Shown here one piece after another: positions 30,390-59,661 of a DNA stretch of 64,000 nucleotides. Below the pieces are notes generated by a model. The model searched no databases and was not told the origin of the DNA. It saw only the letters and a list, made by a program, of their open reading frames with translations. Source of the DNA: Lachnospiraceae bacterium (GTDB taxonomy: Bacteria; Bacillota; Clostridia; Lachnospirales; Lachnospiraceae); assembly GCA_015056915.1 (NCBI GenBank), contig SVFK01000001.1, forward strand, positions 219,219 through 283,218, read 5' to 3'. Numbering within the stretch: the first letter of the stretch is position 1; every line of letters begins with the position of its first letter. Made by a program: the position numbers and the translations under genes.

Positions 30390-32135
30390 ATGGCCTTTGA
30401 TGGCGTTACCATAGCAAATGTAGTACAAGAAATGAATCAGGAATTAATCGGCGGCAGACTTTACAAAATTGCCCAACCGGAAAATGATGAGCTGTTGCTC
30501 ACCATTAAAACCTCCAACGGACAGAAGCGTCTGTTTATCTCCGCCGGTGCTTCTCTGCCTTTGATTTATCTGACTAACACAAATAAGCCCAGCCCCATGA
30601 CTGCACCCAATTTCTGTATGCTGTTGCGCAAGCACCTGCAGAACGGTCGCATCGTGTCCATTACACAGCCCGGCTTGGAACGTATTATCCATATTGAAGT
30701 GGAACATTTGGATGAAATGGGGGATTTATGCCGCAAAACCCTTGTGGTAGAAATCATGGGCAAGCACAGCAATATTATTTTCTGCAACGAGGAGCATATG
30801 ATTATCGACAGTATCAAGCACGTATCTGCCGCAGTCAGCAGTGTCCGTGAGGTGTTGCCGGGCAAGCCCTACTTCGTTGCACAGACACAGGATAAGCTAG
30901 ATGCCCTGACCGTGGAATATCCGGCTTTCCGCGAGGCACTCTCCTCCAAACCACAGCCCACCTTCAAGGCTTTGTACGGAAGCTTTGAAGGCATCTCACC
31001 GATTCTGGCTCAGGAGCTATGCTTTCAGGCCGGTATTGATGGTGAGCAGCCCACCGCAGCCTTGGACGAAGCTGCCTACCAAAAATTGTTTACAGCATTT
31101 AAAACAATGGTACAGTCCATTCAAGCCGGAGATTTTACCCCTAATATTGCATACACCGGCACCCAGCCTGTGGATTTTGCCGCCATACCACTGACCATGT
31201 ACACTACCGGTACAGACCACACGGTGGCATATGATTCTATGAGCCAGCTCTTGGAAAGCTACTATGCAGAGAAAAATACAATCACACGCATCCGACAGAA
31301 ATCCTCAGACCTTCGTCGTATCGTGCAGACAGCATTGGAGCGTAATGTGAAAAAATATGACTTGCAGCTACGCCAGATGAAGGATACCGAAAAGCGTGAG
31401 ACCTATCGCATATACGGAGAATTGCTGAACACTTACGGTTACAGCGCACAGCCCGGCGATAAATCTCTGGAGGCAATCAATTATTACACCAACGAGCCTG
31501 TTACGATTCCTTTGGACCCAACATTGACTGCTTTGGAAAATGCCAAAAAATATTTTGACAAATATAACAAAATGAAGCGCACTTATGAAGCACTGTCTGA
31601 ATTAACCAAAGAAGTCAAAGAGGAAATTGACCATTTGGAGACTATTAGTGCAGCGCTTGATATTGCCCTACAGGAAGAGGATTTGGTAGAAATTAAAGAA
31701 GAGCTGACCGAAAGTGGTTATATCCGCAGAAAAGGCGGCAGCAAAAAGACCAAAATAACCAGTAAACCCTTCCACTATATCAGCAGTGACGGATTCCATA
31801 TTTATGTGGGCAAGAACAATTATCAAAACGAGGAGCTGACCTTTAAATTTGCCACCGGGAATGACTGGTGGTTCCATGCAAAAGGGATACCCGGTTCCCA
31901 TGTCATTGTCAAAACAGAGGGTGACGGGGAAATGCCGGACAGAACCTTCGAAGAGGCCGGACGACTTGCCGCCTATTATTCTAAAGGACGCGGTCAGGAA
32001 AAGGTAGAAATAGATTACATCCAGAAAAAGCATGTAAAAAAACCCGGCGGCGCAAAGCCCGGGTTTGTAGTATACTATACCAATTATTCTCTAATGATTG
32101 ACAGCAATATCGAAGGAATAGAGCAGGTGAATTGA
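30390..32135 (+). CDS. rqcH: NFACT-family ribosome quality-control protein (RqcH/FbpA-like)
   Basis: MAFDGVTIANVVQEMNQELIGGRLYKIAQPENDELLLTI...GSHVIVK...AAYYSKGR...VDYIQKKHVKKPGGAKPGFVVYYTNYS type motifs. Confidence 0.95.
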   Translation: MAFDGVTIANVVQEMNQELIGGRLYKIAQPENDELLLTIKTSNGQKRLFISAGASLPLIYLTNTNKPSPMTAPNFCMLLRKHLQNGRIVSITQPGLERIIHIEVEHLDEMGDLCRKTLVVEIMGKHSNIIFCNEEHMIIDSIKHVSAAVSSVREVLPGKPYFVAQTQDKLDALTVEYPAFREALSSKPQPTFKALYGSFEGISPILAQELCFQAGIDGEQPTAALDEAAYQKLFTAFKTMVQSIQAGDFTPNIAYTGTQPVDFAAIPLTMYTTGTDHTVAYDSMSQLLESYYAEKNTITRIRQKSSDLRRIVQTALERNVKKYDLQLRQMKDTEKRETYRIYGELLNTYGYSAQPGDKSLEAINYYTNEPVTIPLDPTLTALENAKKYFDKYNKMKRTYEALSELTKEVKEEIDHLETISAALDIALQEEDLVEIKEELTESGYIRRKGGSKKTKITSKPFHYISSDGFHIYVGKNNYQNEELTFKFATGNDWWFHAKGIPGSHVIVKTEGDGEMPDRTFEEAGRLAAYYSKGRGQEKVEIDYIQKKHVKKPGGAKPGFVVYYTNYSLMIDSNIEGIEQVN

Positions 32136-32159: not shown

Positions 32160-32413
32160 GTCAGAATGTCGGGGATAAAAAGTCCACCGCCCACAATGGT
32201 CAGGCTGGTTTGTCATCTACAGGAGCCTTAGTTGCCCTTAGGATTGGCAAAGATGCGTTGTTGCCCACAATTCGTCTGTTTGAGCGTAGCGAGTTTTCGA
32301 ATTGTGGGTAACGTACTTAGCAGATTTGACAATTCTTAGTGCAACTTGGCTCCGCAGCCGCAAACCGGTCTGACCATTGTGGGCGGTGGACTTTTTGTCC
32401 TCGTTATTCTGAC
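32160..32413 (+). other. Long structured intergenic element, copy A
   Basis: Positions 32160-32212 pair with 32361-32413 (53 positions, one T-T mismatch, five G-U). Conserved core 32208-32365 shared with copy B. Confidence 0.9.
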
Positions 32414-39479: not shown

Positions 39480-39552
39480 AGCTGCTGACGGGAATCGGAC
39501 CCGTGACCTCCGCACTACCAATGCGACGCTCTACCGACTGAGCCACAGCAGC
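39480..39552 (-). tRNA. tRNA-Thr (GGT)
   Basis: Reverse complement GCTGCTGTGGCTCAGTCGGTAGAGCGTCGCATTGGTAGTGCGGAGGTCACGGGTCCGATTCCCGTCAGCAGC; cloverleaf with anticodon loop TTGGTAG. Confidence 0.95.
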
Positions 39553-39611
39553 AATTATAAAGTTGTAATGTATACACCTCTTCGTCTCTTATGCTTTCAT
39601 TCAAGACGAGA

Positions 39612-39683
39612 GCTGCTGACGGGAATCGGACCCGTGACCTCCGCACTACCAATGCGACGCTCTACCGACTGAGCCACAGCAGC
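39612..39683 (-). tRNA. tRNA-Thr (GGT), second copy
   Basis: Body identical to 39481-39552, separated by 59 bp. Confidence 0.95.
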
Positions 39684-48682: not shown

Positions 48683-48960
48683 AAAAACGGATAAATCCAT
48701 CCTTAGAGACGAATTTATCCGCGGTTCCACTCTACTTAAAGACCTAGCGGTCTTTCTCTTAATACGTTTAACGCACGCCCACGTATCCGGATACTTGCCA
48801 CACAGATACCTTTCCCCGAATCAGCTCACGGATGCACTTCCTTTCTCCCTGTGCCGAAGCCGCTTTCAGCCTGTTGACAGCTTCTCTCTGATGCCTTCAG
48901 AAAAAGTACTCTTTCCGCTCATTGCCTTTTATCTATCTATTTATCAGAATATGCAAAAAC
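48683..48960 (-). promoter_or_regulatory. T-box leader (Cys specifier) upstream of cysE-cysS
   Basis: Minus strand AGAGTGGAACCGCG T-box (48733-48720), terminator GGATAAAT...ATTTATCCGTTTTTT (48720-48683), specifier-like GAAG-TGC-ATCC at 48836-48834. Confidence 0.92.
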
Positions 48961-59328: not shown

Positions 59329-59408
59329 CCATTTTCCCTCATAAGCAAGTTATCTTCAGCCTCCTTATCATAACACAAAACGAAAATCTGTGCCACTCAA
59401 TGTTATGC

Positions 59409-59642
59409 CGCCGGGGTTAAATTCCACCGCCTCTAGGGCAGGTATTGTTTGTCATCTACAGGAGCCTTAGTTGCTCTTAGGATTGACAAAGCTGCGTTGT
59501 TGCCCAAAATTCGTCTGTTTGAGTGTAGCGAGTTTTCGAATTTTGGGTAACGTACTTAGCAGATTTGACAATTCTTAGTGCAACTTGGCTCCGCAGCCGC
59601 AAACAATACCTGCCCTAGAGGCGGTGGAATTCGCCCCCGGCG
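59409..59642 (+). other. Long structured intergenic element, copy B
   Basis: 59420-59451 pairs perfectly with 59600-59631 (32 bp), plus outer CGCCGGGG/CCCCGGCG. Core 59447-59604 nearly identical to 32208-32365. Confidence 0.9.
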
Positions 59643-59661
59643 TCTTATTATCATCTTATCG

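Follow-up and report, generated by a model that had tools for sequence, protein, structure and literature searches.

Giant imperfect hairpins with a conserved tip form a dispersed, covarying repeat in a Lachnospiraceae genome and recur with unrelated arms in other Bacillota

The window, a stretch of 64,000 nucleotides from a Lachnospiraceae bacterium, holds two copies (A and B, Table 1) of a dispersed repeat that spans about 250 bases and contains no gene. The genes on either side of copy A converge on it, with ends at 32135 and 32427, and the upstream one is presumably NFACT-like; the copy bears A- and T-runs at the feet of its hairpin. Copy B is flanked by two genes on the minus strand. Elsewhere in the window, all on the minus strand, are a T-box leader and a pair of adjacent tRNA-Thr(GGT) genes whose Rfam scores are equal (48702-48931 and 39480-39683). 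The source genome (G000; 2.2 Mb in 24 contigs, 85% complete) carries 13 full copies of the repeat, A and B among them, together with several relics. Every full copy forms a single imperfect giant hairpin of about 100 bp, and copy A folds as one hairpin at -132.7 kcal/mol (z -15.3). A sharp-edged core of about 156 nucleotides, with a mean identity of 94% across the 13 copies, is flanked by outer arms of about 36 bp that are 57% identical from copy to copy and yet 92% complementary inside a copy. Between copies, distances in the core do not correlate with those in the arms (Mantel r = -0.20, p = 0.94), which implies either separate histories of core and arms or arms that are near saturation. The core may have been inserted into resident host terminators, although the outer arms of different copies align at 57% identity versus a shuffled mean of 32%, and hence look like diverged relatives. 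Among the relics, L016 (G000:C4:18179-18230) is a mini-form in which an arm-to-arm junction, with the two arms joined at GGAGCC, replaces the core, while L015 and L018 are partial copies.

Table 1. Features of copies A and B, in window coordinates
Feature	Position	Strand	Basis
Copy A, whole hairpin element	32160..32413	+ (motif strand)	sequence; fold; outermost inverted repeat GTCAGAAT...ATTCTGAC
Copy A, conserved core TTTGTCATC...CAGCCGCAAA	32209..32364	+	mean 94% identity, 13 copies
Copy A, copy-specific left outer arm	32173..32208	+	57% between copies, 92% complementary to right arm
Copy A, copy-specific right outer arm	32365..32400	+	arm comparison across copies
Copy A, 11-bp helix (32264-32274 with 32298-32308) and loop	32264..32308	+	covariation
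Copy A, tip motif TGTTTGAGCGTAGCGAGTTT	32277..32296	+	phylum-wide as giant-hairpin tip
Copy A, cap GC(GTA)GC within tip	32284-32290	+	sequence
Copy B, whole hairpin element, ends approximate	59404..59648	+	sequence; fold
Copy B, conserved core	59448..59603	+	six differences from copy A
Copy B, corresponding helix and loop	59503..59547	+	sequence; alignment
Copy B, tip motif TGTTTGAGTGTAGCGAGTTT	59516..59535	+	one letter off: C to T in cap, giving a T-G pair

A preliminary description of the two copies had reported six differences between their cores, two of which, C32268-G32304 in copy A versus A59507-T59543 in copy B, fall on opposite sides of one 11-bp helix that stays intact in both. Re-reading of the sequence bore out the count, the coordinates and the letters: the strands CCCACAATTCG (32264-32274) and CGAATTGTGGG (32298-32308) pair in copy A, as do CCCAAAATTCG (59503-59513) and CGAATTTTGGG (59537-59547) in copy B. 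The double change is real, but it had been read in the wrong direction, from A to B: the C-G pair is private to copy A and 28 of the 29 related cores have A-T, and copy A therefore represents the derived state. Taken by itself the change is a weak, at best suggestive, sign of structure; by our own estimate at least one compensating pair is expected among six random differences in a 156-nucleotide hairpin with a chance of a few per cent. The adjoining pairs 32266 and 32267 also covary, with C-G becoming A-T in L002 and A-T becoming C-G in L013, and three adjacent pairs of this helix have been altered separately in three copies of the same genome (L002, L013 and copy A). Double changes affect 10 of the 18 pairs of the helix and the stem beneath it.

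Covariation was assessed in the 13 cores of the source genome and in a larger set of 29 related cores, to which three genomes of the same genus (G016, G024 and G504) contribute. In the first set nine pairs show a double change that preserves pairing, versus 1.2 +/- 1.0 after shuffling, and none of 500 shuffles reaches nine. In the second, 26 of 48 pairs show double changes, a number matched by none of 500 shuffles, with 121 compensatory cells versus the 36 +/- 5 expected from shuffling. Structures slid along the 29 cores, a control that respects relatedness whereas shuffling does not, gave 8 to 12 pairs. Thus the larger alignment, which the preliminary description had proposed as a check, does contain covariation, and its reading of the paired change as selection on structure is supported across both sets of cores. 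A comparable pattern was found elsewhere in the phylum in eight orthologous hairpins of the sister species G089 and G333, whose longest flank matches are 76-91% identical: 50 double changes keep pairing versus 4 that break it, and among single changes 23 keep and 37 break it.

The tip of these hairpins has the consensus TGTYTGAG-(small hairpin)-CGAGTTT, in which a fixed internal loop, TGTYTGA / GAGTTT, is closed by a small hairpin. In Bacillota, about ten GTDB families have giant hairpins that end in this tip although their arms are unrelated. Among 399 genomes sampled from the whole phylum, 11 contain the exact loop TGTTTGAGCGNAGCGAGTTT, in multiple copies reaching 17 in one genome, and the motif read backward as a control had zero matches in the same 399 genomes. 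A slightly longer form of the tip is also present in Alkalibaculum sporogenes, a Peptoclostridium MAG and a Lachnospiraceae MAG. Most of the 116 non-redundant places within two letters of the motif lie at the tip of a hairpin whose spanning pairs number 60-120, compared to a mean of 23 in control windows (95th percentile 47, maximum 74); many of the low-scoring places sit at contig ends. Outside g1, visual inspection found no sequence shared between the arms of different genera. Leaving the inner letters free uncovered further caps, namely CCC-GCA-GGG, GCCC-GCA-GGGC, CCGC-GAA-GCGG, GGCC-GAA-GGCC, GC-GTAA-GC and GC-GATA-GC, to which covariance-model matches add ACGC-GAA-GCGT and CAGC-GCA-GCTG, and chance matches to the motif that are devoid of a cap hairpin are mostly devoid of a giant hairpin too. 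As these varied but paired caps are set between constant letters, the constant part of the tip is TGTYTGAG...CGAGTTT around a variable capping hairpin.

The cap loop is mostly GNA or GNNA; the exact motif occurs with each of the four N, and in other lineages the G-C stem is longer. Such loops on at least two G-C pairs, as in d(GCGNAGC), are extraordinarily stable DNA mini-hairpins (PMC4686876), and the cap is of this kind (GC-GNA-GC, or a GNA/GNNA loop on a longer stem) in most lineages, with other loops in G393/G435, G203 and some copies elsewhere; the mini-hairpins are, however, a physical motif studied in vitro rather than a mobile element. GA dinucleotides on both sides of the cap resemble, by sequence only, tandem sheared G.A pairs or a kink-turn. 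We set aside a triplex reading, in which N = A turns the tip into a mirror repeat (PMC4666352), since N is variable and the cap shows the covariation of a hairpin. The tip motif was also found in 6 viral contigs, in four of which a hairpin surrounds it, while two longer exact strings had no match in viral contigs. The IMG/VR contigs L211, L212 and L215, labelled viral, display the same tip on hairpins and may stem from another phylum; L212 and L215 have inner loops like those of G089 (GCGT.AA..A/TTTTAGC-like).

The elements are intergenic, situated close behind stop codons, and number in the low tens per carrier genome. With the motif setting the orientation, 61 of 83 intergenic elements have a right-hand gene (by simple ORF calls) that terminates at the hairpin; its stop codon is typically about 90-140 nucleotides away from the tip, which places it close to the foot. 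The elements carry no gene, and no gene family is repeatedly found beside them. Orthologous sites in relatives are without the element: the locus of copy A is reduced to a short intergenic stretch in G502 and G024, and at the L131 locus an ordinary terminator directly 3' of the stop codon in G333 and G400 corresponds to giant hairpins in G089 and G422. Across 138 genomes of the genus, the shortened exact motif is seen in 4 and covariance-model matches in 12, some weak ones of which may be other hairpins; these matches include separate multi-copy subfamilies in G051 and G468, and the carriers include G000, G016, G024, G051, G468 and G504. This patchy distribution is compatible with mobility or rapid turnover.

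Several further observations concern individual carriers. Giant hairpins of G089 and G333 (L131-L136) are often paired head to head at a spacing of 270-470 bp, reminiscent of REP pairs, with no gene seen between them. The gene flanks of the paired hairpins of G089 at the L131 locus are on different contigs in G333 and G400, and a rearrangement point may coincide with the pair. In L298 (G333:C6:76500-77700), the orthologue of hairpin L149, the inner core is gone and the outer stem remains, apparently through a deletion between short CGTT repeats. Many contigs of G268 (L151-L170) end inside a hairpin copy, so assemblies probably tend to break at the elements, and draft genomes would contain more of them than are counted.

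Inverted-repeat conversion, which the preliminary description had named as an alternative, does take place in these elements. In its extreme form this explanation dispenses with selection altogether: the arms would stay complementary by quasi-palindrome correction alone, and paired changes would be an artefact of mutation. Template switching produces correction of this type in E. coli (PMC7202029), and L013 (G000:C23:63198-63399) is a natural instance of it, its right arm being the exact complement of the left over about 48 bp, which yields a nearly perfect palindrome and replaces an internal loop that other copies keep. The arm-to-arm junction of L016 points the same way, as do the double changes of the 11-bp helix in the source genome, which are A-T/C-G transversions with a one-sided intermediate (L008) that is a mismatch. 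However, correction would erase internal loops and mismatches, and both are retained in nearly all copies. Moreover, the tip letters are conserved across families while the tip hairpin between them varies by lineage in stem length and pair identity, with caps that covary or lengthen amid fixed flanks, and single changes that preserve pairing are also common in orthologues. Hence conversion is not the whole story: an origin of the paired changes without selection appears improbable, and selection on the fold explains most of the covariation, with arm-to-arm template switching occurring alongside it.

Selection on structure could also act on RNA, and function of a transcript at gene ends is the chief rival to a mobile repeat, although we regard it as somewhat unlikely. 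The hairpin would then be a transcript 3'-end element (a bidirectional terminator, an mRNA stabiliser or a site for an RNase or other protein) or a small RNA of the motif strand, and covariation would be expected of it. The position directly behind stop codons, the ordinary terminator that occupies the place of the giant hairpin at the L131 locus, and the A- and T-runs of copy A all favor this, and the tip, with its two flanking GA dinucleotides, could be read as RNA as well as single-stranded DNA. The asymmetry of the strands bears on both readings. With RNA parameters the motif strand (TTTGAGCG...) gives a better fold than the complementary strand in 96 of 102 copies, and with DNA parameters in 83 of 102; in the first set of genomes helix mismatches on the motif strand are G.T in 94 cases versus A.C in 41 (p = 6e-6), independent of the direction of the neighboring gene. 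The G.T excess is absent (21:18) from a second set, whose 38 elements come mostly from other genomes and show G.A versus C.T at 17:6; mismatches shared by descent were only partly removed from these counts. Selection is likely to be specific to one strand, and the wobble favored in several lineages would suit RNA. Nevertheless, the transcript of the upstream gene mostly carries the complement of the best-folding strand; GNA triloops dominate the caps, whereas RNA would favor GNRA tetraloops, and GATA is a GNNA but not a GNRA loop; related species do without the element; and Rfam 15 yielded no family at gathering score, with just chance-level matches at E <= 10.

We could not match the class defined by this tip to any described element: the core had no match in plasmids and phages, the hairpins of three other lineages had none in plasmids, and among the titles listed by text searches of the open-access PMC literature none looked related to the tip motif. 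Integron attC sites are imperfect hairpins behind genes with conserved unpaired features, recognized as one folded strand, and the present elements share this organization; however, attC sites belong to cassette arrays and have conserved foot boxes, whereas cassette arrays are absent here and it is the tip that is conserved. The CS-6 loop of ssoA, the single-strand origin of rolling-circle plasmids, reads TAGCGA/T, and its letters equal those of the tip when N = T; ssoA is likewise a long imperfect hairpin, but N varies freely in our elements, which are chromosomal, all studied copies being on genome contigs rather than on rolling-circle replicons. REP and REPIN sequences mobilized by TnpA-REP (RAYT) proteins (PMC3116915, PMC3733652, PMC8266576) are similarly gene-less, intergenic, multi-copy palindromes with head-to-head pairs, a position behind genes and compensatory stem variants. 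Nonetheless, REPs measure 20-40 bp and have a GTAG or CGTC foot, in contrast to the hairpins of 200-250 nucleotides with a conserved tip described here, and no such conserved foot tetranucleotide appears in the alignment of the source genome's copies; a survey of REPs places GTAG repeats in other phyla and leaves Firmicutes unmentioned. A long derivative of one of these folded single-strand systems, either a REP that depends on a Y1 transposase (RAYT) for its movement or a site resembling attC on which a tyrosine recombinase acts, would agree with intergenic folded palindromes, the pairs in G089 and G333 and the preferred orientation at gene ends. It is very improbable given roughly tenfold the length of a REP and letters conserved at the tip instead of the foot; furthermore, no integron integrase (TIGR02249) scored over the cut-off in nine carrier genomes. 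A Y1 transposase (PF01797) is present in 11 of 13 carriers and was detected neither in G000 (85% complete) nor in G422. MITEs are short and non-coding with long inverted repeats, and the elements conform to this in their inverted arms and in having no recurrent neighbor gene. No parent transposon or transposase with matching ends was found, and the empty orthologous sites are too diverged to define element ends or a target-site duplication; MITEs also keep their terminal repeats, whereas the copies here differ most in the outer arms. The MITE-like bcr1 of the Bacillus cereus group, dispersed, non-coding, about 150-250 bp long and forming a long hairpin (PMC524882 as cited in PMC2267715), is alike in size, dispersal, long hairpin and absence of coding capacity, as judged by that cited description.

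Based on the fold, its covariation, the conserved tip, the copy number and the absence from orthologous sites, we tentatively favor the view that these are dispersed, gene-less, non-autonomous mobile repeats that are conserved mainly as a shape and recognized as a folded single strand. The element would be recognized in trans, most likely as single-stranded DNA of the motif strand with its GNA-capped tip, and a putative enzyme that reads the fold would both spread the elements and homogenize the core. Compensatory changes would accumulate because copies that lose the fold cease to be propagated, and occasional template switching, by rewriting one arm from the other, may aid them. The decoupled histories of core and arms are not predicted in detail by such a mobile repeat. 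A bolder version, possible though more doubtful, extends it to a phylum-wide class of giant single-stranded DNA hairpins, parasitic or domesticated, with free sequence except for the internal loops and the fixed tip, in which a putative enzyme would read the fold of one strand and copy the element behind genes, making the lineages with unrelated arms a single family by shape.

Interspersed palindromes of bacteria are usually grouped by sequence and within one species. Giant hairpins present in multiple copies in many families of Bacillota are united here by the tip motif and the fold, although their arms have no common sequence, which raises the possibility that a large class of such elements has been overlooked. 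Now that covariation has given an exact consensus of the structure and the carrier genomes are listed, the questions of whether the element acts as DNA or RNA, and which enzyme is involved, become testable. The elements further provide a setting, found in nature, where selection on a fold and palindrome repair by template switching can be distinguished for each copy.
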